A stretch of DNA of 64,000 nucleotides from Egibacter rhizosphaerae (GTDB taxonomy: Bacteria; Actinomycetota; Nitriliruptoria; Euzebyales; Egibacteraceae), in NCBI RefSeq assembly GCF_004322855.1, contig NZ_CP036402.1:1984001-2048000 (forward strand). The letters run 5' to 3'. Below the pieces are notes generated by a model. It was not told the DNA's origin, searched no databases, and worked only from the letters and a program-made list of their open reading frames with translations. The position numbers and the translations under genes are program-made. Below, piece after piece: positions 6,352 through 22,684 of the stretch. Every line of letters begins with the position of its first letter. The stretch's first letter is position 1.

Positions 6352-8223
6352 GTGTCAGCCACCTCCCCGCCGCAGGCGCCCCTCGACGCCGCTCTCGACG
6401 GGGTCGAGCACATCGCACGCACCTGCGACGCCCCCAGCGACCGCGTCGTCGGCGCGGTGCTCGGCGCGGTCGTCGAGCGCCAAGCGGGACAGGATTGCGC
6501 GGCCGCGCTCGGGTTCCCATCCGGTCCCGTCGGACTGCACGGGTCGACCCTGGAGCGCGTGGCCCGCGACATCGACGCCGGGCTGCTCGGCACGGCCCTC
6601 GACACCGACCCCGCCACGCTGATCGCCGGCCCGCTGGGCGAGCTGCACACCCTGCTGCTCGAGGGCCCCGACCGCGCCGCGCCGTCGACGAGCGCCCGGG
6701 ACGGGGCTCGGCGTGCCGCCGGAGCCTGGTACACGCCCGCCGGGCTCGTCGACGCGGTCCTCGAGCGCACCCTGGAGCCGTTCCTGTCCACCCCCGGAAC
6801 GAGCGTCGGCGGGTCGCCAGCCGGCGCGCCGGTGCGCGTGCTCGATCCCGCATGCGGGTCGGGGCGCTTCCTCCTCGCGGCCGCACGACGGCTCCGCGAG
6901 CACGGCGGGGCCGCCAGCCTGCACGGCATCGAGCGCGACCCGACCGCCGCGGCGCTCGCTCGCGCGGCCCTGTGGCTCGACCGCGAGGACCGTCCCGGTC
7001 CCGCCGACGTCGCCGACCTCGTCACCGTGGGGGATGCCCTGGGCGACGAGATCACCGCCGCCCCCGCCGACGCCGTCATCGGCAACCCGCCGCACGGTGG
7101 GGCGCTCGCTCCCGCCTCGCGCCGCTGGCTCGCCCGACGCTACCCACCCGCCCGGCGCGCCGGCAACACCGCAGCCGCGTTCCTCGTGCGCGCCCACGAA
7201 CTCACGCGGTCCGGAGGGCGGGTCGGCTTCGTGCTGCCGAAGTCGCTGACCTACGCGCACACGTGGGCACCGTTGCGGGACTGGCTGGAGCCGTCGGTCG
7301 TCGACGTCCTGGACGTCACGCGGGCCTGGACCAACGTGCGGCTCGAACAGGTCGTGCTCGTGACCCGCCCGGACGGTCGACCGGGCGAGACCGTCTCACT
7401 GGGGCGCCTCGGGCGTCCGCGCCGCGCGGTGCCCGCTGCCATCGTGCGACGGATCGGCACCCTGCCCACCGGGGTCGACGCCGACGACGAACGGCTCCTC
7501 GCCCACCTCGCCCGGCGCGCCGACCTGCCGCTCGGCGAGCTCGTGCGCACCGTCCGCGGCGCCGGCTCCCAGGCGTGGGCCCTCGAGCCGGGCGCACCGT
7601 CTTCGACCGGCGACGCAACCGCTCCCCACGGACCGCACCCGCAAGGGGGGCGACACCTGCCACCACAGCCGGCCGCGGGCACGGAACCGCTCGTCGCCGG
7701 CCGCGACCTCGCCCCCTTGCGGCCGACAGCCCCCACCCGCCGGCTCGACCTCGCGGCGTGCCCGCCCGACCGGGTACGGCGCGCCGACCCCCCGCAGGCG
7801 GCGTTCCAGAACATCGTGGCGCACCGCACCCGCCCCTCGGACCACGCGTGCCTCATCGGCACCGTGCTGACCGAGCCGTGGCCATGCCTGGACACCGTCA
7901 ACCTGCTGCTCCCCCGCACCGGGACCCTGCCGCCGTGGGGTCTCGCTGGCCTACTGCTCAGCCACCTCGCGAGCTGGTTCGTCCACGTCGCCGCGTACAA
8001 CCGTGCCATCCGCACGATGCACTTCGACAACGTGGTGCTGGCCCGCATCCCCCTTCCCGACCCGGACCTGCCGGCGCGGCTCGATCCCATCGCTCGCGCC
8101 ATCGCCGGCGACCCCGACGATCCCGGCGGCTGGGAAGCGCTGGAGGACGCGGTCGCCGCTGCCTGGCGCCTGCCGACCGCCGCACGCGAGCGCCTCGCGG
8201 CCACGCACGCGCCCCGCGCTTGA
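6352..8223 (+). CDS. Orphan N6-adenine-type DNA methyltransferase
   Basis: 623 residues from a GTG; a TACGCT box eight bases upstream suggests leaderless transcription. Motif I (VLDPACGSGRFLL, D165) binds S-adenosylmethionine and motif IV is NPPH (residues 245-248), a variant of the NPPY/F of gamma-class adenine methylases. The C-terminal half contains PLVAGRDLAPL, FQNIVAHRTRP and ARIPLPDPDL, resembling the target-recognition part of Eco57I/type IIG-like enzymes. There is no nuclease motif in the protein and no restriction gene beside it. It may be a regulatory orphan methylase or the remnant of a restriction-modification or BREX-like system. Target site unknown. Confidence 0.8.
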   Translation: MSATSPPQAPLDAALDGVEHIARTCDAPSDRVVGAVLGAVVERQAGQDCAAALGFPSGPVGLHGSTLERVARDIDAGLLGTALDTDPATLIAGPLGELHTLLLEGPDRAAPSTSARDGARRAAGAWYTPAGLVDAVLERTLEPFLSTPGTSVGGSPAGAPVRVLDPACGSGRFLLAAARRLREHGGAASLHGIERDPTAAALARAALWLDREDRPGPADVADLVTVGDALGDEITAAPADAVIGNPPHGGALAPASRRWLARRYPPARRAGNTAAAFLVRAHELTRSGGRVGFVLPKSLTYAHTWAPLRDWLEPSVVDVLDVTRAWTNVRLEQVVLVTRPDGRPGETVSLGRLGRPRRAVPAAIVRRIGTLPTGVDADDERLLAHLARRADLPLGELVRTVRGAGSQAWALEPGAPSSTGDATAPHGPHPQGGRHLPPQPAAGTEPLVAGRDLAPLRPTAPTRRLDLAACPPDRVRRADPPQAAFQNIVAHRTRPSDHACLIGTVLTEPWPCLDTVNLLLPRTGTLPPWGLAGLLLSHLASWFVHVAAYNRAIRTMHFDNVVLARIPLPDPDLPARLDPIARAIAGDPDDPGGWEALEDAVAAAWRLPTAARERLAATHAPRA

Positions 8224-9808: not shown

Positions 9809-10240
9809 TCACCCTCGCGGAGGGCCGTCCTCGAGCAGGACCAGGATCGCGGAGGCGAGCTCCCGCAGATCCTGCAACCCGCCCAGGTGCTCCCAGACCC
9901 GCTCCGGATCCACGGTGAGGTACGCATGAACGAGGACGTTGCGCAACCCGGCGGCCTCGGCCAGGCGCCCCGCGAGCACCCGGTCGATCACCCCCGCCTC
10001 GCCCAGGACCCTGAACGCGTCCGCGTAATCCTCCGGCGTCGCAGCAGAACGCTCCGCGGCCACGTGCAGCGCGACATCGATCGCGCACTGGATCGCCACC
10101 TGCAGGTGGCGTTCGCCCTGCGCCTGCACCGCCTCGTCCGCCACGTAGGTGTCGCGGCCGTGCTCGCGAAGCCGTTCGAGCTGCGCCAGGCGGCGGTCGA
10201 GCTCGCGCAGACGGCGGGTGACGACCTCAGGGTCGACCAA
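9809..10240 (-). CDS. hepT: HepT-like toxin (DUF86), copy 1
   Basis: 143 residues, all-helical DUF86/HepT fold. The RNase-type motif appears as RNVLVHAY (R-x4-H-x-Y) near residue 100, as in HepT toxins of the HepT/MntA system. Its start overlaps the end of the mntA-like gene by 14 bases, so the pair is one operon with antitoxin first. In studied systems MntA transfers AMP groups to the Tyr of this motif to neutralise HepT, and the Tyr is present here. Converges on menB with a 16-base gap. Confidence 0.85.
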   Translation of the reverse strand: MVDPEVVTRRLRELDRRLAQLERLREHGRDTYVADEAVQAQGERHLQVAIQCAIDVALHVAAERSAATPEDYADAFRVLGEAGVIDRVLAGRLAEAAGLRNVLVHAYLTVDPERVWEHLGGLQDLRELASAILVLLEDGPPRG

Positions 10241-10664
10241 ATCGACCCTCCTTCAGCCGTCGCCGCGTCCCCTCCTGCAGCACGGCCCGCAGCGGCGCCA
10301 TGTCGAGGTAGCGGTCCACCGTTCGCACCCAGTGCCTCACGCGCGCGCCTTCGTCGCGGCTGAACAACAGCCGTCCGTCGCGGAGCACTCGATAGGCCAG
10401 GGGAATCGGCGCGTCGTCGAGGACCACGACGTCGGCGCGCTCGCTTCCGGTGACCTCGCCGACGGCGGCGGTGAGCGCGGCGTACCGCGCCAGGGTCGGG
10501 GAGGCGCCGAGGAGCACCGCCACATCGACGTCCGAGACGGCTCCCCCCTCACCGCGCGCCCACGAGCCGAAGAGGTAGGCGACGAGCACGTCGGGTTCGC
10601 GCTGCAACCGAGCAGCCAGGGCGTCGGCGAGGTCACTCGTCGATGTCGACGCGGGCGTGGACAT
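10227..10664 (-). CDS. mntA: MntA-like antitoxin nucleotidyltransferase, copy 1
   Basis: 145 residues. Minimal nucleotidyltransferase with YLFGSWARGEGGAVSDVDVAVLL (GSx10DxD), the metal- and nucleotide-binding motif, and a third acidic residue in ADVVVLDD. Pairs with the downstream HepT-like gene. The C-terminal ~30 residues (APLRAVLQEGTRRRLKEG) are basic. A TAGCCT box (complement of 10671-10676) six bases before the ATG, with no ribosome binding site, indicates a leaderless promoter, the same design as in the second mntA copy at 20207. Confidence 0.87.
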   Translation of the reverse strand: MSTPASTSTSDLADALAARLQREPDVLVAYLFGSWARGEGGAVSDVDVAVLLGASPTLARYAALTAAVGEVTGSERADVVVLDDAPIPLAYRVLRDGRLLFSRDEGARVRHWVRTVDRYLDMAPLRAVLQEGTRRRLKEGRFGRP

Positions 10665-10889: not shown

Positions 10890-12170
10890 TCAGACGCGAG
10901 CCGGGATCACCACCGTGCCCAGACCCTTCAGACGCTGGGCCGACGGGTCGTGGAGGAGGTCCGCGACCGCCTCAGGACCGCTGCGGCCCTCGCTGATCAG
11001 CCCCGCGAGCACCGCGGCGACCTGGGGGGCCGCGAACGACGTGCCGTCCCACCGCGCCCCTCCCGTGAACTCGACGTCGCCTTTCGGGGGCTCCACGACC
11101 ATCTCGCCCTTGCAGGGCTCCGGGGGGTGATCGGGATAGGGGGCCATGGGCCCGTCCCACTCCAGGAACGTGCTGTGCCGGTCCACGCCGGGCGCGCAGG
11201 CGTCCACCCACCAGCCGTGGTTCGAGAAGCAGGCCCGCCGACCGTCGTTGTCCAGCGCACCGACCCCCACCACGAGCGGGCTGGCCGCGGGGAAGAACGG
11301 GTGCGCCGCCCCCTCGTTGCCCGCCCCGGCGACGATCACCAGGCCCGGCGTCAAGTCGCGCAACGCCTCCACCGCGCCCTCGAACGCGAGCAGCCCCATC
11401 GCGTCGTGCGTGTACCCACCCACCGAGAGGGTCAGGACGTCGCACGCGAGCAGCTCGGGGGTGTCGAGCAGCATCGTGGCGAGCTCGAGGTCGGTCAGGT
11501 GCGCCGGGTTCGGCGCGGGCCCCGGATCCTCGGGCAGGCGCCGCGCGACCACCGTCGCCCGGGGTGCGTACTGCAGGATCGTGCCGGCGATGAACGTCCC
11601 GTGCCCGGCGGCCCAGTCGAGCCGGCCGTCGCCGTCCTGGTCGGGCACGTCGAGGTCCTCGGGGTACCGGAAGTCGACCCGACCCATGAACCACGGGTGC
11701 GCCCAGGCGCCCGTGTCGAGGGCGGCGATCCGCACCCCCTCGCCGGGCAGCCCGGGCTCGTCGGCGCGCAGCGGCAGCGGCGGTGCCGGGCGAGGTGGCG
11801 CGACGGGCACCATCGCGAGGTGCGCGTTCACCCCCAACACGTGGCTGGGCCCGACGCGGAGCCCGCCGGACAGGGCGTGCAGCTCGTCGACGATCGTCGG
11901 AACGTCCGCGCCTCGACCGGTCTTGATCTCCAGCAGCGCCACGCCGAGCCGCTCATGGCGCGCGATGTCGGTCACCGAGGTGCCGCGTCGCTCGTCCAGG
12001 TACCGTTCGACCCGCGGGAGGTCGTCGAGGGTGCTGACCAACCGGTCCGGCTCGTACAGGTAGTCGCCCGCGGTGCGGTCCACCGTCTCCGCCACGCCCG
12101 GGGGCAGTGGTGGCTCGTGTCCCCGGTGGCCGCGTCCGCGATGGTCGTGTGCGTTCCCGCCTCTTGCCAT
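10890..12170 (-). CDS. Subtilisin-like serine protease (S8), no signal peptide
   Basis: 426 residues from ATG 12170, chosen because GAGGAGAG lies five bases upstream; the frame stays open far beyond it. A His/Gly-rich start and a ~110-residue prodomain-like region (YLYEPDRLVSTLDDL ... LGVNAHLAMV) precede the S8 domain with the catalytic triad Asp152 (AALDTGAWAH), His190 (GHGTFIAG) and Ser378 (GTSFAAPQVA). No signal peptide or membrane helix is seen, so the enzyme is probably cytoplasmic, unlike most subtilases. It is divergent from a TPR-CHAT protease with 141 bases between starts. I infer that the two proteases work in one pathway, one perhaps activating or being cleaved by the other. Confidence 0.88.
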   Translation of the reverse strand: MARGGNAHDHRGRGHRGHEPPLPPGVAETVDRTAGDYLYEPDRLVSTLDDLPRVERYLDERRGTSVTDIARHERLGVALLEIKTGRGADVPTIVDELHALSGGLRVGPSHVLGVNAHLAMVPVAPPRPAPPLPLRADEPGLPGEGVRIAALDTGAWAHPWFMGRVDFRYPEDLDVPDQDGDGRLDWAAGHGTFIAGTILQYAPRATVVARRLPEDPGPAPNPAHLTDLELATMLLDTPELLACDVLTLSVGGYTHDAMGLLAFEGAVEALRDLTPGLVIVAGAGNEGAAHPFFPAASPLVVGVGALDNDGRRACFSNHGWWVDACAPGVDRHSTFLEWDGPMAPYPDHPPEPCKGEMVVEPPKGDVEFTGGARWDGTSFAAPQVAAVLAGLISEGRSGPEAVADLLHDPSAQRLKGLGTVVIPARV

Positions 12171-12201
12171 GATCTCTCCTCGCGCCCGATTGCCGGGGAC
12201 C

Positions 12202-12230
12202 AGTATCAGCGTCGCCGCCGCGATCACCAA
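12202..12230 (-). promoter_or_regulatory. Candidate promoter of the subtilase gene
   Basis: Reading the minus strand, TTGGTG (complement of 12225-12230) and GATACT (complement of 12202-12207) are separated by exactly 17 bases, a good match to a housekeeping sigma promoter. It lies 32 bases before the subtilase ATG in the divergent gap to the CHAT gene. Confidence 0.4.
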
Positions 12231-12311
12231 CGACATCGGACGAACCACGGCGGCGTGGCACATTCCCGGCAGAGACCTCATCCCCGCAGACACCTCAGCC
12301 CACGGGAGCGC

Positions 12312-14969
12312 ATGACCACCGGCGGCCAGCGCACTGCGATCCTCGCGGATCTCGCCGCGCAGGCGCTCGACTGCGCGCGCGAGGATCCCGAGCACGCCCG
12401 CGACCTCGCCGGACGGGTGCTCGCCGAGGCGCCACCCGACGACCCGGCCAGCGCCGCGTCGCGTTCGATCGCCCACCGGGCGCTGGGCCTCGCCGCCCGG
12501 GCCGATCACGACCTCGACCTGTCGTTGCGGCACTTCTCGCGCGCCGTCGAGACCGCCGAGGGGGCGGGTGAACGCGTGGTCGCCGCGCGCGCCCGCACGA
12601 GCCTCTTCGGAACCCTGGCCTTCCAGGGCCGCTTCGAGGCGGCCTTCCAGGAGGCCGCGCGCGCCGCGCAGGACGTCGAGGGGGTGGACCTGGCGCGTCT
12701 CGAGTTCCAGCGCGCCACCGTCCTGGTGGCCCAGGGTCTCGACCTCGGCGCGGCGCTGGCCGACTTCAACCGGGCGCTGCCGGTGCTGCGCGCCGCCGGC
12801 GAGACCGAGCTGGTGGCCGCCACCCTCTGGAACCGCGGCATGCTGCACAGCTACCGCGGTGACCTCGCCGTCGCCGAGGCCGATCTCCGGGAGGCCGAGT
12901 CCCTGCACCGCTCGTCGGGACAACCCCGCCTGGCGGCGACCATCCAGCAGAACCTCGGCCTCGTCAGCAGCCAGCGTGGTGACCTGCCCGCCGCGCTCGA
13001 ATGGTTCGGGAAGGCCGCCGCGTTCTTCGACGAGCGCGGCGAGGTCGACCCCATCGGCCTCCGGGACCGATGCGAGGCGCTGCTACCCGCCCGCCTCCTC
13101 GCCGAGGCCCGAGCCTCCGCCGAGCAGGGACTCGCCCGGCTCACCCGCCACGGCTATCGCGGCTATGCCGCGGAGACGCGCCTGCTGCTCGCCCATGCCG
13201 CGATCCTCGACGACGATCCCGACACGGCACGGATCGAGGCCGACCGCGCAGCCCGGACCTTCGCCCAGCAGGGCCGGCCCCGCCACCGCGTCCTCGCGAG
13301 CTACATCGCCGCCCGCGCCGCGTGGCATCAGGGCGAGCACAGCCGCGGGGTGCTGGGCCGCATCCGGCGGGCCGCCGACCAACTCGAGGACGCCGGATGG
13401 ATGGCGCCCGCCCAGGAGGCGCGGCTGACCGCGGGACGCCTCGCCCTGGAGCTGGGTCACCCGATCATCGCCGACCGGGAACTCGGCGTGGCCGGCGAAC
13501 GGCGGCACCGCGGCCCCCTCGAGCCGCGGGTGCACGGCTGGCACGCGGAGGCGCTCCGCCGTCACGCGGCCGGCAACCGGACCGGGGCACGTCGCGCGAT
13601 CGAGGCGGGCCTGCGCTTGGTGGACGCCCAGCGGGACCTCCTCGGTGCCACCGACCTGCGTACCCACACCACGGTCCACGGTGCCGAGTTGGCACAGTTC
13701 GGCCTCCACCTCGCTCTGGAACAGCAGCGCGCGGACCGGGTCCTCATGGCCGCGGAGCGCACGCGCGCCGCGAGCCTCGCGACCCCGCCGACCCGCCCAC
13801 CCGACGACGAGCGACTGGCGTCAGCCCTGGGTCGGCTGCGTCAGACAGTGCGCGACCTCGACCGGGCCGCGCTCGCCGGCGAGGGCACCACCGACCTCAT
13901 CCAGCAGCAGACCCGACTCGAACGCGAGGTCGCCGACCTCGCCCGCCAGGCCCGCGGCACCGGGACCGGGCCGTCGGGACACCTGTCGCTGGACGCGCTC
14001 CACCAGCGGCTCGGGGACCGCGCGCTGGTGGAGTTCGTGGGGGTCGGCGGGTCGCTGCATGCCGTGGTCGTGGTGGGTGAGCGCGCGACGCTCGTTCCGC
14101 TCGGCTCCGACGACCCGGTGAGCCGCAAGGTCGTCGCCGTGCGGTTCGCGGCGCGGCGACTGACGAACCCGCGCGGCTCCGAAGCCGGTCGCGCGGCGGC
14201 GCACACGGCGTTCGACCACGCGCGGCACGAGCTCGACCGCCTGCTGTTCGACCAGCTTCGCTCCCACGTCGGCGACCGTCCGCTGGTCGTCGTGCCGACG
14301 GGCTCCCTCCACGCCCTGCCGTGGGGCACGCTGCCGTCACTGGACGGTCGGCCGGTCACGGTCGCGCCCTCGTCGCAGCTGTGGCTCCGGGCGCACGAGT
14401 CGGCGGCGGCACCTGGCACCGACCCACCCGTGCTCGCGCAAGGGCCGGACGTGCCCGCCGCCGCCGACGAACTCGCCGCGATCGCCGATCACCACCCGAA
14501 CGCGACCCTGCGGACCGGTGCCGACTCGACGGCCGAGACGGTGCTCGCCGACCTCGATGCGGCCTCGCTGGGGCACCTGGCGGCCCACGGCACGTTCCGC
14601 GCCGACAACCCCCAGTTCTCGTCACTGCGCCTCGCCGACGGCCCGCTCATGGTCTACGACCTCGAACGGATTCGGCAGCCACCCCCACACCTCGTGCTGT
14701 CGGCCTGTGACGCCGGACTGTCGGACGTCAGCGCCGGCGACGAGCTGCGCGGTCTGGCCGCGGCGCTGCTCGGCCTCGGCACGCGATCGGTCATCGCCTC
14801 GGTGATCCCCGTCGGGGACGTTGAGACCGCCGCGTTGATGGGCGACGTGCACGCAGAACTCGCGTCGGGGCGGGAGCCCGCGACCGCCCTCGCACGGGCC
14901 CAGTCGCGGACCGGGGCCGACGGATCGGCACCGCGCGCGTCGGGCTTCGTCTGCTTCGGCGCGGGCTAA
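12312..14969 (+). CDS. TPR-CHAT caspase-like protease
   Basis: 885 residues from ATG 12312 (GGGAG just upstream). Residues ~1-560 are helical tetratricopeptide-type repeats (repeated LAxxLxxxALxxARxxG patterns, for example WNRGMLHSYRGDLAVAEADL and QQNLGLVSSQRGDLPAALEW). A charged coiled-coil-like linker (~600-650) follows, then a CHAT domain (~670-885) with catalytic His759 (LAAHGTF) and Cys799 (LSACDAG), both intact. CHAT enzymes are clan CD cysteine proteases related to caspases and separase. The TPR part would sense a partner or scaffold. It heads a same-strand run of six genes that ends with an ECF-type sigma factor and its small partner, and is divergent from a subtilase. Signalling by proteolysis is inferred; the substrate is unknown. 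Confidence 0.9.
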   Translation: MTTGGQRTAILADLAAQALDCAREDPEHARDLAGRVLAEAPPDDPASAASRSIAHRALGLAARADHDLDLSLRHFSRAVETAEGAGERVVAARARTSLFGTLAFQGRFEAAFQEAARAAQDVEGVDLARLEFQRATVLVAQGLDLGAALADFNRALPVLRAAGETELVAATLWNRGMLHSYRGDLAVAEADLREAESLHRSSGQPRLAATIQQNLGLVSSQRGDLPAALEWFGKAAAFFDERGEVDPIGLRDRCEALLPARLLAEARASAEQGLARLTRHGYRGYAAETRLLLAHAAILDDDPDTARIEADRAARTFAQQGRPRHRVLASYIAARAAWHQGEHSRGVLGRIRRAADQLEDAGWMAPAQEARLTAGRLALELGHPIIADRELGVAGERRHRGPLEPRVHGWHAEALRRHAAGNRTGARRAIEAGLRLVDAQRDLLGATDLRTHTTVHGAELAQFGLHLALEQQRADRVLMAAERTRAASLATPPTRPPDDERLASALGRLRQTVRDLDRAALAGEGTTDLIQQQTRLEREVADLARQARGTGTGPSGHLSLDALHQRLGDRALVEFVGVGGSLHAVVVVGERATLVPLGSDDPVSRKVVAVRFAARRLTNPRGSEAGRAAAHTAFDHARHELDRLLFDQLRSHVGDRPLVVVPTGSLHALPWGTLPSLDGRPVTVAPSSQLWLRAHESAAAPGTDPPVLAQGPDVPAAADELAAIADHHPNATLRTGADSTAETVLADLDAASLGHLAAHGTFRADNPQFSSLRLADGPLMVYDLERIRQPPPHLVLSACDAGLSDVSAGDELRGLAAALLGLGTRSVIASVIPVGDVETAALMGDVHAELASGREPATALARAQSRTGADGSAPRASGFVCFGAG

Positions 14970-15075
14970 AGCACCACCGCCTCCCGTCGCACGTCCGAAC
15001 GCCATCCGTTGCCAACAGCCGCCGGCCGGCTCCGTCTTCCAGAGGAGAGACGGCGCATCGGGAGGTGGTAGCGAG

Positions 15076-15285
15076 ATGGGACTGGAGTACGAGACGGCGC
15101 GGGTTCGGCGGCAGGAGCTGTTGCAGCTCGCCCAGCAGCGTCGCCTGGCCCGCGAGGCGCACCGGCACGGGCCCGAGCCCGGCGGCGCACGGCACACTGC
15201 GGTGTCTGCAGTCGGCAGGGCGCGTGCGGCGTGGCGGCGGCTGACAGGGGCTCGACGGGCCGCGTTCTCGACGAGGAGGGTCTGA
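15076..15285 (+). CDS. Small Arg-rich protein in the CHAT locus
   Basis: 69 residues with an excellent ribosome binding site (GGGAGG, about 10 bases before the ATG). An amphipathic helix rich in Arg, Gln and Leu (ARVRRQELLQLAQQRRLAREA) is followed by a short Gly/His linker and a second basic helix (VGRARAAWRRL). No cysteine, membrane segment or known domain. The stop is directly followed by the next start (15287), so the two are in one operon. It resembles in style, but not demonstrably by homology, the small protein at 4502-4882. Function unknown; a basic helix pair could bind nucleic acid or a protein partner. Confidence 0.65.
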   Translation: MGLEYETARVRRQELLQLAQQRRLAREAHRHGPEPGGARHTAVSAVGRARAAWRRLTGARRAAFSTRRV

Positions 15286-15286
15286 G

Positions 15287-15706
15287 GTGGGAGAAGACGA
15301 CACCGAGGTGAAGCAACCGGATGGACCGGGAGCCGTGGAGAACGTGGCCATCCTGGACCTCACCACGATGCGCTCGGCCGACGAGCTGCTCGCGGTCCAC
15401 CGCATCGAGAACGTCGCGCTCGTCCTCGTCCCCGAGTCGCTCGCCGGCACGCTGGCACGCATCCCGACCAAGAACGTGGCCAGCGTCGTTCCGGTCCCCG
15501 ACGGCGCGGATCTGAGGGTCCACACCGGCGCGGTCGTCATGGGCGGTGACGCCTTGGCCGATCCGTCGGCCGAGGGCGCGGTGCTGGTCGTGACCGGCAC
15601 CCTCGCGGTGTCGAACCCCGTCGAGCACGTGGCGTTCGCCCGGGTGGTCGTCACCGGGATGGTGCTCGCCCCCACGGGAGCGAGGCGGCCCTCGCCAGCG
15701 GCCTGA
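15287..15706 (+). CDS. Unknown beta-rich protein A of the CHAT-sigma locus
   Basis: 139 residues from GTG 15287 (GAGGAGGG six bases upstream). Predominantly beta-strand pattern with short repeats: ENVAILDL, ENVALVLVP, KNVASVVPVP, GAVLVVTGTLAV, and VEHVAFARVVVTGMVLAP. The spacing suggests a small solenoid or repeated beta hairpins. No signal peptide or helix bundle. It shares the (I/V)VxxGxLVAP-type motif with the next protein, so the two are probably distant paralogues. I do not recognise a named family. Its position between the CHAT protease and the sigma factor makes it a candidate substrate or regulator in that pathway. Confidence 0.7.
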   Translation: MGEDDTEVKQPDGPGAVENVAILDLTTMRSADELLAVHRIENVALVLVPESLAGTLARIPTKNVASVVPVPDGADLRVHTGAVVMGGDALADPSAEGAVLVVTGTLAVSNPVEHVAFARVVVTGMVLAPTGARRPSPAA

Positions 15707-15711
15707 CACGG

Positions 15712-16251
15712 GTGACGGGCTCGGTGGAGTACTTCCACCTCGTCGAGGGGCAGCAGTTCAAGACGCTGTCCGGCCAACAGCGCCTGAGTGGTGAGGCCCT
15801 CGCGAACGAGGGAGGAACCGAGGGCGACGTCTTGTTCCTCTCCGGCCAGACCGTCATCACCGGCCCCATACCGCGGATCGGGTACCAGCGCATCGTCGCC
15901 GCGGGACAGCTCGTCGCGCCGCGCGCGAGCGAGACCCGGCTCGTCCCGGTCCTCACCATGGAGGGGCAACTCGCCTGGTACGGGGGTGAGCGTCCACGGT
16001 TCTTCGTCGGCAAGGAACGCCTCGGCCGCGGGTTCTTCGAGCTCGTCGACGAGCCCCTCGCGTTGGTGCTGGTCGGACGATTCGAGCTGGGCGATGACGT
16101 CGGTGTGGACCTCCTCGGCCAGAAGGTCGCCGAGATCTCGCTCGTCGGGACGCTCGTCGCTCCCGACGAGCTCGTGGGAGCCGTGCAGTTCCTCACCACG
16201 GAGAACCACGGCACGATCGCGGTGGCAGAGGATGTCGTCGACGGGGGTTGA
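15712..16251 (+). CDS. Unknown beta-rich protein B of the CHAT-sigma locus
   Basis: 179 residues from GTG 15712, five bases after the previous stop. Beta-rich with the segments GDVLFLSGQTVITGPIPRIGYQRIVAAGQLVAP, RPRFFVGKERLGRGFFELVDEPLALVLVG, and KVAEISLVGTLVAPDELVGAVQFLT. The recurrent xGxLVAP element links it to protein A upstream. Bactofilin-like or other beta-solenoid assembly is conceivable but not shown. The stop (16249-16251) lies 20 bases inside the sigma factor gene, so translation is coupled to it. Function unknown; a sequestering or scaffold role for the sigma factor is a hypothesis. Confidence 0.7.
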   Translation: MTGSVEYFHLVEGQQFKTLSGQQRLSGEALANEGGTEGDVLFLSGQTVITGPIPRIGYQRIVAAGQLVAPRASETRLVPVLTMEGQLAWYGGERPRFFVGKERLGRGFFELVDEPLALVLVGRFELGDDVGVDLLGQKVAEISLVGTLVAPDELVGAVQFLTTENHGTIAVAEDVVDGG

Positions 16252-16762
16252 GGTCGCCGCCTTCGACGACCTCTTCGAGCGGCACCGCGACACCGTGCAC
16301 GCGTTCCTCCTGGGCCGCACCTCGGATCCGGAGGCCGCTCGCGACCTGCTGCAGGAGGCGTTCCTACGGCTGTGGCGGCACCTCGGCGAAGTCGCGACGC
16401 TCGAGGAACCACGCCAGCGGGCCTGGCTCATCACCGTGGCGCGCAACCTCGTCATCGACGGGTACCGCGCCGAGGCCACCCGGACCGCCACGGTCGCCAA
16501 CCTCGCCCGCGACCCCGGCGTGCGGGACGGCAGCGAGCCCGACGACACCGAGCGCGTAGCCCTGCGCGGGCAGCTCACGCGCCTCGACGCGGCGATCGCG
16601 CGCCTGCCGGAGCAGGAGCGTGTGGCCCTGACGATGGCGAGCGTGGCGGGGATGACCAGCGACGAGATCGGCGAGGCACTGGACCGCCCCGCCGGCACGG
16701 TGCGCTACCACCTCCACCGTGCGCGCACCCGGCTCGCGGCAGAATTGGACCTGGACACGTGA
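16232..16762 (+). CDS. ECF-type sigma-70 family factor
   Basis: 176 residues from ATG 16232, which overlaps the preceding gene by 20 bases; a GTG five codons later is an alternative. Region 2 (FDDLFERHRDTVHAFLLGRTSDPEAARDLLQEAFLRLWRH ... RAWLITVARNLVIDGYR) and region 4 (LPEQERVALTMASVAGMTSDEIGEALDRPAGTVRYHLHRARTRL) are both complete, region 3 is absent, as in ECF sigma factors. No zinc-finger anti-sigma gene follows; instead a small unrecognised gene overlaps its stop by four bases. Its position in the same operon as a TPR-CHAT protease suggests that protease action releases or modifies it. Confidence 0.88.
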   Translation: MSSTGVEVAAFDDLFERHRDTVHAFLLGRTSDPEAARDLLQEAFLRLWRHLGEVATLEEPRQRAWLITVARNLVIDGYRAEATRTATVANLARDPGVRDGSEPDDTERVALRGQLTRLDAAIARLPEQERVALTMASVAGMTSDEIGEALDRPAGTVRYHLHRARTRLAAELDLDT

Positions 16763-17028
16763 CCATGCCCACCGAGCACCCGCAGCGGCTGGACCCCCTC
16801 CTCGACGCGTGGGGGCGGCGTCACGCGCTCTCGCAGACCCGGACGGCGGAGATCCGCGAGGCCGTCCTCCGCGACCGGGGGCCTGCCGAGGAGCGAGACA
16901 CGCTGCCCGCGACATGGTGGCTCGAGCTCAGCCGACAGGTCACCGCCAGCATCGTGACCGCCACCGCCGTCCCGAGGACGGCCGTTGACCGGGCCTACCA
17001 AGCAGTGCCCGCGGCAACCGTCGCCTGA
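16759..17028 (+). CDS. Small partner protein overlapping the sigma factor gene
   Basis: 89 residues from GTG 16759, sharing GTGA with the sigma factor stop; an ATG two codons later is equally possible. Sequence opens with [27 protein letters not shown], a helical segment resembling the start of anti-sigma or DNA-binding helical proteins, continues with [23 protein letters not shown] and ends in a short Ala-rich tail. No zinc-binding cysteines or membrane helix. The four-base overlap argues for stoichiometric synthesis with the sigma factor, so an anti-sigma or co-factor role is plausible but unproven. Confidence 0.65.
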
Positions 17029-18316: not shown

Positions 18317-18637
18317 GTGCTGCTGACCCCCCACGAGCAGGAGCGACTGCTGCTGCACGTCGCCGCGGACGTCGCCCGCAGACGCCAGGCCCGGGGCGTC
18401 GCGCTGAACCGCCCCGAGGCCGTCGCACTGCTCTGCGACGTCGTGCTCGAGGGCCCCCGCGACGGCCGCTCAGTCGCCGACCTCATGGAGGCGGGCCGCC
18501 ACGTGCTCGGGCCCGACGACGTCATGCCCGGCGTGGAGGCGATGATCCCCGAGATCGCGGTCGAGGCGACCTTCCCGGACGGCACGAAGCTCGTGACCGT
18601 CCACGATCCTCTCGGCGCCGCGGAGACCCACACGTGA
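18317..18637 (+). CDS. ureA: Urease subunit gamma
   Basis: 106 residues from GTG 18317, with GGAGGG seven bases upstream. [70 protein letters not shown] and [17 protein letters not shown] are the standard UreA landmarks across its whole length. UreA is the small structural subunit of the nickel urease. Here it is followed directly, with a GTGA overlap, by the accessory gene ureD instead of ureB and ureC, which do not occur anywhere in the window. Without them no active enzyme can be made from this locus alone. Confidence 0.92.
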
Positions 18638-19281
18638 CCGCGCGCGGCCGTACCCGCATCGTCGAGCGCCGGTCGGACCCGCCGCTGGTCCTGCGCCCCA
18701 CCCCGGAGGCCGTGCACCTCGTCGGCGGCACCGCCGGCCCCCTCGGCGGCGACGACCTCGCGCTAGACGTCGAGGTCGGCCCGGGCGCTCGCCTGACGGT
18801 GCGCACCGTCGCCGCGTCGCTCGTCTACCCGGGCACGGGCCCCTCGCGGCTGGCGGTCACCGCCCGTGTGGACCGGGGCGGGCACCTGGACTGGGCCCCG
18901 GAGCCGACGGTCGCGATCGCGGGCTGCGACCACGAGGCCTCCGCGTCCATCGACCTGGCCGAGGACGCGACGCTGCGGTGGAGCGAGCAACTCGTGCTCG
19001 GACGGTCCGGTGAGGCCGGCGGCCGCGTGCGCAGCACCCTGTGGGCCGACCTCGCGGGGTCCCCGCTCCTGCGTCACGCCCTCGACGTCGGCGGGGACGC
19101 ACCCGACGGACCGGCCATCACCGCGGGCGCCCGCGCGATCGGCAACCTGCTGGTCGTCGGCCCCGAGGCCGCGCCGCTCGACCGCGAGGCGCAGAGCCCG
19201 GAGCGCGCGGTCCTGGACCTTGCGGGGGGCGGCGCGCTCGTGACGGTTGTCGGTGGGAGCGCGTGCGCATCCACGTCATGA
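18634..19281 (+). CDS. ureD: Urease accessory protein UreD
   Basis: 215 residues starting at a GTG that overlaps the ureA stop. [54 protein letters not shown] is the conserved UreD/UreH N-terminal half, followed by [40 protein letters not shown]. UreD is the scaffold of the UreDFG complex that loads nickel into urease. The protein is at the short end for the family and its C-terminus ([13 protein letters not shown]) does not resemble the usual helical ending, so the 3' end may be truncated. ureE, ureF and ureG are absent here. Confidence 0.82.
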
Positions 19282-19339: not shown

Positions 19340-19762
19340 TCACGGTGAGTCGGCATCGCTGGCCTCGAGCTCGGCCACCGTCCTCACGAACCGTTGCACC
19401 GGCTCCAGGCGGCGTGTGGCCTCCACGACACGCTCGAGGTCCAGCCCCACGTACTCATGAAGCACCACATTGCGGAGACCCGGCAGTGCCTCCAGCTCGG
19501 TGACGACGGCCGGCTCGACCCCGACGGTCAAGAGGTTCCTGACGGCGGTGGTGTAGTCGTCGAACGGCAATGCGCGACGCGCCGACAGCTCACCGGCGAT
19601 ATCGACCACCAGTTGGGCGACCATCAGCAGCGAGAACAGCACATCGTTGCGCAGGCTGAAGTCACCGCGCAGATCGTCCGCCGATGTCACCCGGGCGCGC
19701 AGCTGCTCGAGATGGGTCAGATGCCGGCGCAGTTCACCGAGGCGCTCGACCAGGTAGGTCAT
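19340..19762 (-). CDS. hepT: HepT-like toxin (DUF86), copy 2
   Basis: 140 residues, helical DUF86 fold with RNVVLHEY (R-x4-H-x-Y) near residue 98, the HepT ribonuclease motif and AMP-acceptor tyrosine. It follows the mntA-like gene by 7 bases on the same strand. Overall similarity to copy 1 at 9809 is low outside the motif region, so the two modules are not a recent duplication. Confidence 0.83.
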   Translation of the reverse strand: MTYLVERLGELRRHLTHLEQLRARVTSADDLRGDFSLRNDVLFSLLMVAQLVVDIAGELSARRALPFDDYTTAVRNLLTVGVEPAVVTELEALPGLRNVVLHEYVGLDLERVVEATRRLEPVQRFVRTVAELEASDADSP

Positions 19763-19769
19763 GGCGCTC

Positions 19770-20207
19770 TCACGCTCCGGTCCGTAGCGCCTCCAGAGCC
19801 ACCCGACGCGCCCGACCGAGGAACAGGTCGAGATCGGCCGCGCGCAACTGGGCGTGGCGTCGGAATGCGATGTCGGCCTCAGGGTCGCGGCACTGCAACC
19901 TCCGGCCGTGGCGCAGGACGGTCCGCGCCAGCATCGGCGGCGCGTCGTTGAGCACCACGAGGTCGACGTCGTCCCGACGCAGGGCGGCGATGAGCGCGCT
20001 GGTCAGCCGCAGCCGCTCCTCGAAGCGTTCTGCGGCGGTCGGGAAGCGGTCCCGGTCCAGCAAGACGGCCACGTCCACGTCGCTGTCGACGCGCGCGGTC
20101 CCGCTGGCGTGCGACCCGAACAGATAGACGGCGAGGACGCCGTCCCAGTCCGCCATGACACGTGCGATTGCCTCGTCGTCCACACGGCGCCGGTCGTTGG
20201 GGGACAT
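19770..20207 (-). CDS. mntA: MntA-like antitoxin nucleotidyltransferase, copy 2
   Basis: 145 residues from the ATG at 20205-20207. AVYLFGSHASGTARVDSDVDVAVLL contains the GSx10DxD catalytic motif and VDLVVLNDAPP the third strand, where Asn replaces one acidic residue compared with copy 1 (VVVLDDAP). Residues 100-145 are basic and end with LDLFLGRARRVALEAL. No ribosome binding site is seen; TAGCCT seven bases before the ATG implies a leaderless mRNA. The frame stays open upstream, but the palindromic promoter and family length support this start. Confidence 0.82.
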   Translation of the reverse strand: MSPNDRRRVDDEAIARVMADWDGVLAVYLFGSHASGTARVDSDVDVAVLLDRDRFPTAAERFEERLRLTSALIAALRRDDVDLVVLNDAPPMLARTVLRHGRRLQCRDPEADIAFRRHAQLRAADLDLFLGRARRVALEALRTGA

Positions 20208-20208
20208 T

Positions 20209-20222
20209 GGTAGCAGGCTACC
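20209..20222. promoter_or_regulatory. Palindrome over the mntA copy 2 promoter
   Basis: A perfect inverted repeat GGTAGC-AG-GCTACC immediately precedes the ATG (20207). On the minus strand it contains TAGCCT as the -10 box. A palindrome covering the -10 element is well placed for autorepression by the toxin-antitoxin complex, though HepT/MntA lack an obvious DNA-binding domain. Confidence 0.45.
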
Positions 20223-20380
20223 CGACACCTCGCCGGCGAGACCGGCAGCGAGCGAACCGACCCGAGCGCCGGTCACGATCCCGGCGGTCAGCGGGTGTGC
20301 TACGAGGTGGGCATCGACGAGCCGTTGACCGGCCACGGCCCGTCGTGACCACGGCAGCGCTCGGCCACTCACACGGTGCT

Positions 20381-20436
20381 TCCACAGATTCGGGTGGGTT
20401 CCAGATGCTGTCGTAGGTGGCGAGTATACTTCCAGT
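20381..20436 (+). promoter_or_regulatory. Conserved 5' flank and leaderless promoter of DUF222 cassette 1
   Basis: The 56 bases before the ATG begin TCCACAGATT and end with a TATACT -10 box (20425-20430) six bases before the start codon. The second DUF222 gene has the same TCCACAGATT start exactly 56 bases before its ATG and TATTAT at the same place. No ribosome binding site is present in either, so both are probably leaderless. Confidence 0.55.
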
Positions 20437-22110
<1,674 letters not shown>

Positions 22111-22324: not shown

Positions 22325-22684
22325 ATGGACGAGGTCAGCCGCCATCATGCGTTCGACGTCCTGCGCGACCGCCTGGACGAGCCAACCGCTTCCCTCATCA
22401 TGAGCCATCTCGCCCCGGTGCCCGCCCCTGACCTCGCGACGCGCGCGGACCTGGCCGAGGGGCTGGACGTCCTCGGCACCCAGCTGCGCGGCGAGGTCGC
22501 CGAGGTCCGTGGCGAGATCGTCGAGGTCCGTGGCGAGATCGTCGAGGTCCGTGGCGAGATCTCCGAGGTCCGTGGCGAGATCTCCGAGCTACGCGGCGAG
22601 CACAAGCGCGACCTCGGCCGTTTGATGCTGGTCCAGGTCGCGACACTGATCGCGGCCGTGGGTACCACCGCGGCGATCACGTAG
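22325..22684 (+). CDS. Heptad-repeat coiled-coil protein with C-terminal membrane anchor
   Basis: 119 residues, ATG with GAGGAG six bases upstream. After a ~45-residue helical start (ALDEPTASLIMSHL-like region and PAPDLATRADLAEGLDVLGTQLR) comes a run of seven-residue units EVRGEI(V/S), encoded by 21-base DNA repeats (22502-22585), followed by a C-terminal transmembrane helix (LMLVQVATLIAAVGTTAAIT). This layout is shared by CCDC90/DUF1640-like proteins, a coiled coil ending in a membrane helix. The role is unknown. The near-perfect DNA repeats indicate recent expansion. Confidence 0.7.
   Translation: MDEVSRHHAFDVLRDRLDEPTASLIMSHLAPVPAPDLATRADLAEGLDVLGTQLRGEVAEVRGEIVEVRGEIVEVRGEISEVRGEISELRGEHKRDLGRLMLVQVATLIAAVGTTAAIT
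22502..22585 (+). repeat. 21-bp in-frame tandem repeat, four copies
   Basis: Units starting GAGGTCCGTGGCGAGATC at 22502, 22523, 22544 and 22565 are nearly identical, with degenerate units on both sides. Each encodes one coiled-coil heptad, so copy number changes would alter coil length in whole heptads. Confidence 0.9.

Follow-up and report, generated by a model that had tools for sequence, protein, structure and literature searches.

Positions 10890-17028 of the window (the whole 64,000-nt stretch of Egibacter rhizosphaerae DNA analysed here, contig positions 1984001-2048000 of genome G000, which is a single contig of 4.64 Mb) encode a subtilase, a TPR-CHAT protease, and an ECF sigma factor, which raises the question whether these proteases and the neighbouring sigma factor form one regulatory unit. 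An earlier note took the region as one locus, in which proteolysis would free this sigma factor. Our genome comparisons indicate that it is instead made of two modules placed side by side (Table 1). We consider it likely that the two are independent, the first being an S8-CHAT protease pair whose partners would be a distant ECF54-like sigma factor and a protein named here fam3, and the second a separate ECF operon encoding a small basic protein, a protein named AB, a sigma factor, and a small partner.

Table 1. Features of the two modules (window coordinates) and of the distant sigma-fam3 pair of the same genome (contig coordinates).
Feature	Position	Strand	Remarks
S8 subtilase, 426 aa, module 1	10890..12170	-	D152/H190/S378; Pfam Peptidase_S8 5.4e-18
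TPR-CHAT protease, 885 aa, module 1	12312..14969	+	H759/C799; Pfam CHAT 3.4e-36, TPR_12 2.1e-10
Candidate ECF-type promoter CCAAC-N16-CGTCT, module 2	15012..15037	+	between CHAT stop (14969) and basic gene start (15076)
Small basic protein, 69 aa, module 2	15076..15285	+	short basic ORFs upstream of AB in three relatives
AB N-terminal half (A), beta-rich, module 2	15287..15706	+	52-64% identity to N-terminal part of the single AB ORF of relatives
AB C-terminal half (B), module 2	15712..16251	+	frame lost between halves: linker one nucleotide short
ECF sigma factor, 176 aa, module 2	16232..16762	+	sigma-70 regions 2 and 4 (Pfam); 55-60% to AB-linked sigma factors
Small soluble partner, 87 aa, candidate anti-sigma factor, module 2	16765..17028	+	conserved downstream of sigma; function inferred from position
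ECF54-like sigma factor	contig 828683-829255		CHAT-linked sigma clade; directly upstream of fam3
fam3 gene of G000	contig 829263-829772		directly after ECF54-like sigma

The protease pair

All open reading frames lie where the earlier note had placed them, and the catalytic residues that it named are correct. The S8 gene is divergent from the CHAT gene. The D152/H190/S378 triad is kept at the aligned positions in 20 S8 relatives, the H759/C799 dyad is kept in every CHAT relative that covers those positions, and both proteases look intact at the sequence level. No signal peptide or hydrophobic N-terminus was found in S8 (N-terminal hydropathy maximum -0.26), in agreement with the absence of a signal peptide claimed before. 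Downstream of CHAT, after a gap of 106 nt on the same strand, the genes from 15076 to 17028 are tightly packed, overlapping or nearly contiguous as described. The basic, A, B, and partner proteins have no Pfam match above the curated cut-off.

CHAT, A, and B served as queries against 100 relatives, and the neighbourhoods of the matches were then read. With few exceptions, the relatives covered have S8 adjoining CHAT, both within the same family and in other families of the phylum. The conserved linkage that had been suggested as a check therefore exists for S8 and CHAT, and fails for CHAT, A, B, and the adjacent sigma factor.

In many CHAT-linked subtilases, the stretch from an N-terminal '(L)NHVLF/LDHLV' motif to the catalytic domain contains a perfect tandem array of hexapeptides, for example at L036:10319-11509 and in the CHAT-adjacent S8 of L038, L039, L040, L042, L043, L044, L045, and L049. 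The units include NPAYQG (8 copies), ANPAYQ (7), PFTSGG (7), PGGTPY (11), and PFWVGH (4), among others; the window S8 is without such an array. All PFTSGG copies in L043 and L044 differ in their codons, and the peptide therefore looks selected rather than freshly duplicated. These two loci (in G045 and G035, respectively) carry S8 and CHAT twice in succession, together with several fam3 genes and one sigma factor gene, an arrangement that suggests local duplication of the system. In G000, a second, weak CHAT domain (6.3e-05) occurs at contig 3211691-3212242 (L002), within a 1022-aa open frame.

Sigma factor and fam3 accompanying the proteases

Two gene families recur around CHAT in the relatives. 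One is an ECF sigma factor whose region 4 ends distinctively (PIGSIGPTR); the other, which in nearly every case comes immediately behind it, is fam3, a protein of 140-180 aa (~155 residues). The fam3 model (pLDDT 86.4) consists of two N-terminal helices, forming a helical hairpin, and a beta sandwich, and a fold search with it gave no match at E<=0.001. At the sequence level, fam3 has weak matches only in the PDB (two chains at 0.07-0.09), and its best Pfam match, CarboxypepD_reg, is weak and below the cut-off (0.053).

A fam3 profile was run on the relatives and on a sample of 296 genomes of the phylum, and its matches were compared with those of CHAT in the same genomes. Strong CHAT matches were defined by E<=1e-43, a cut-off set after seeing the gap to the next match at 2e-33. 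Strong CHAT matches, of the window type, occur in 23 genomes, every one of which also has fam3; fam3 itself is present in only 26 of the 296 genomes (hypergeometric probability about 2e-31, kinship ignored). The two genes lie no more than 10 kb apart in 18 of these 23 genomes; they co-occur at a distance in G000, G019, G021, and G024, and are 25 kb apart in G238. Further split cases are found among the relatives (G023, G025, and G029), and draft genomes can hide linkage. In G000 itself, the sigma-fam3 pair is on the same chromosome as the window CHAT, 1.17 Mb away. That the two halves co-occur even at such distances speaks more strongly for a joint function than their being neighbours would by itself. 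At the looser threshold of E<=1e-12, CHAT is found in 38 genomes, 25 with fam3 and 13 without; the latter belong mostly to one family, show weaker CHAT matches, and probably contain another CHAT type. These sequence patterns are best explained if S8-CHAT supplies the proteases of a four-gene system composed of a subtilase, a TPR-CHAT protease, an ECF54-like sigma factor, and fam3.

The sigma tree separates the sigma factors concerned. Those linked to CHAT form one clade (100/99, 22 rows), which includes the distant sigma factor of G000, and those linked to AB form another (100/99, 5 rows). The window sigma factor, even if encoded next to CHAT, falls outside the CHAT-linked clade and groups with the AB-linked sigma factors. 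The better candidate partner of these proteases is thus the sigma factor at contig 828683-829255 and not the one at window position 16232.

A proteolytic control has already been proposed for the ECF54 group, whose genetic context has conserved carboxypeptidase-, subtilase-, and CHAT-domain proteins (2022 review, section 3.3, PMC8999054); for this gene context the sources are Huang 2015 and Casas-Pastor 2021, both cited in that review. The gene content of the CHAT-linked system closely matches this description, which places CHAT, a subtilase, and a carboxypeptidase-related protein beside a single actinobacterial ECF sigma group, so that membership in ECF54 would follow from published gene context and not from a group model. 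In this assignment fam3 would be the carboxypeptidase-related protein, although its likeness to a carboxypeptidase regulatory domain is weak. G000 also departs from the published context in that its proteases are far from sigma-fam3 and have a different sigma operon beside them.

The association of these proteases with a sigma factor is therefore an already published prediction. We add to it the co-occurrence despite splitting, a modelled fold for fam3 and its naming as a candidate substrate, and a warning against taking the adjacent sigma factor for the partner. The idea of a protease-sigma switch in the earlier note was right in kind, given the strong co-occurrence across Actinomycetota and the ECF54 proposal, but it had chosen the wrong sigma factor, together with A/B and the small partner, a plausible pairing that is corrected here in favour of a better sigma partner.

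Proposed switch and known systems

In type III-E CRISPR systems, the TPR-CHAT protease Csx29 cleaves Csx30, an inhibitor that binds CASP-sigma (PMC10028731). By analogy with this Csx29-Csx30-CASP-sigma switch, the TPR domain would sense a signal inside the cell, and CHAT and/or the subtilase, perhaps in a cascade, would respond by cleaving fam3 or the sigma factor. The cut would change sigma activity, by either activation or loss, and so switch on a response; in G000, the sigma-fam3 half would act in trans over 1.17 Mb. Every proteolytic and anti-sigma step here is inferred. Judged by sequence and position, fam3 is a candidate substrate or anti-sigma factor, since it comes directly after the sigma factor nearly always and is a soluble two-part protein. 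ECF54 is described as having no anti-sigma factor (PMC8999054), and an anti-sigma role of fam3 therefore fits less well than a plain substrate role, one which the co-occurrence with CHAT makes testable.

In its full form, we advance this proposal tentatively: in Actinomycetota, a CRISPR-free, trans-acting cascade of a cytoplasmic subtilase and TPR-CHAT would cut fam3 to set free a sigma factor of ECF54 type; the hexapeptide arrays in the N-terminal part of many relatives' subtilases would serve as a recognition or activation element. Such a cascade would be a non-CRISPR counterpart of the Csx29 switch and, if real, would mean that TPR-CHAT proteases control sigma factors widely, beyond CRISPR systems.

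The earlier note had reported no CRISPR component, and this stands. A RAMP protein (PF03787; Cas7-11) was not matched anywhere in the genome, with four control genomes positive, and a CRISPR-like array was not found in window positions 5-25 kb; a CRISPR link of S8-CHAT was rejected on these grounds. The window CHAT also has no PDB chain with a sequence match at E<=0.01, and the lack of both a RAMP protein and a PDB match argues that this is not a CRISPR system. Shared with the type III-E CASP/Craspase system are a TPR-CHAT protease with a His/Cys dyad, its link to an ECF sigma factor, and a candidate inhibitor of that factor (PMC10028731); the present system differs by its extra subtilase as well as by the two absences just given.

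A different division of labour, in which S8-CHAT has its own job, such as defence or cell suicide by proteolysis, and the ECF54-like sigma factor switches on the protease genes, appears possible but doubtful. Sigma factors often control neighbouring effectors, and the split arrangements are compatible with a regulon. PADLOC profiles for defence proteases also match, weakly, with BovA at 8.4e-08 for CHAT and subtilase at 8.3e-11 for S8; judged by sequence, these matches are domain-level resemblance only and do not make S8-CHAT a defence system. A simple, crude motif scan found no promoter common to S8-CHAT and the distant sigma-fam3 pair above shuffled controls, which speaks against such a regulon, as does the published reading of ECF54, which favours proteolytic control (PMC8999054).

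The proposed switch also resembles the RseA/DegS- and RsiW-type proteolytic anti-sigma switches, where an inhibitor stands between the protease and the ECF sigma factor under its control. The parts of the present system differ in being predicted to be soluble and cytoplasmic, and the proteases are CHAT and S8.

The AB-sigma operon beside the proteases

Module 2 occurs in five other Nitriliruptoria genomes (G034, G039, G048, G064, and G065), in which A and B show 49-64% identity. In the three relatives whose sequence extends far enough upstream, AB is preceded by a small basic ORF, and the basic gene is therefore counted in this module. The partner, downstream of the sigma factor in relatives, has a conserved LDxLLxxW ... 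WW motif and, from its position, is likely the anti-sigma factor of module 2.

A and B had been described as two proteins. This was rejected because they are halves of one in-frame ORF in relatives, where they are separated by 27 nt, compared to 26 nt in the window. The frame break reflects either a mutation or a sequencing error and, since AB is split, module 2 may be partly dead in G000. The AlphaFold2 model of the intact G064 AB (mean pLDDT 86.6, pTM 0.71) is beta-rich and repetitive, with short helices. It gave no match at E<=0.001 in a fold search of the PDB, and sequence relatives of AB were not found there either. We propose, on the basis of this model, that AB is a beta-repeat protein made by the module 2 unit.

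The motif CCAAC-N16-CGTCT also precedes the basic gene of G034, G039, and G048 (four genomes with the window), with the same 16-nt spacing, and the G048 boxes are likewise CCAAC and CGTCT. Exact copies number 2 in G000 (4.64-Mb contig), 4 in G034, and 5 in G039, counts that are similar to those of a reversed-pattern control, with one copy at module 2 in each of these genomes. No regulon beyond the operon was found for this motif, and the other exact site in G000, at 766631, heads no obvious gene. Because a conserved ECF-type motif stands ahead of the operon, module 2 is probably read from the candidate promoter at 15012-15037 and autoregulated. This motif also argues that 15076-17028 is its own transcription unit; read-through from CHAT into it is possible. 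The AB-sigma operon thus appears as a small uncharacterised ECF unit whose promoter motif marks little else in the genome.

In none of the five other genomes is module 2 near CHAT. The two are at 4.86 Mb (AB) and 1.04 Mb (CHAT) of the single contig of G039, are on different contigs in G034 and G064, and no CHAT is among the matches listed for G048 and G065. Module 2 is also rare: of the 296 sampled genomes only three (G000, G034, and G039) contain it, a single further match being weak and partial, and a short-pattern scan for AB across 84,980 species genomes returned only three Nitriliruptoraceae MAGs.

The AB-sigma operon might have come beside S8-CHAT by recruitment and now be co-transcribed or cross-controlled with it, adding to or replacing the ECF54-like sigma factor as the output of CHAT. 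This would agree with the arrangement in G016, of the same family, where an ECF54-like sigma-fam3 pair lies just 3' of CHAT, at the place of module 2 in the window, and with AB being found in none of roughly 20 same-family relatives searched. The adjacency is, however, seen in one genome only, the ECF54-like sigma-fam3 pair is still present in G000, and AB is broken there, which makes such a recruitment unlikely.

That the region is a single unit, in which CHAT and/or the subtilase cleave A, B, or the partner and free the sigma factor at 16232-16762, is highly improbable: the adjacency of CHAT and the basic gene on one strand, the intact look of both proteases, and the partner as a plausible anti-sigma factor would all suit it, but it was rejected because module 2 is never near CHAT elsewhere, S8-CHAT relatives without AB are common, the window sigma factor belongs to another clade, the CHAT-basic gap holds a conserved promoter motif of module 2 itself, and strong CHAT always comes with another sigma-fam3 pair, present in G000 too.

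Around the two modules, we observe two HepT-like/nucleotidyltransferase pairs (HepT-MntA type toxin-antitoxin) on the minus strand, flanking the region at 9809-10664 and 19340-20447. An N6 DNA methylase/Eco57I-like protein of 623 aa is encoded not far upstream (window 6352-8223). A UreD urease accessory protein (3.7e-30) is found at window 18634-19281, with a urease-gamma-like frame, identified by eye, just upstream. Tandem copies of a 21-nt unit at window 22461-22621 form a heptad-like coding repeat.
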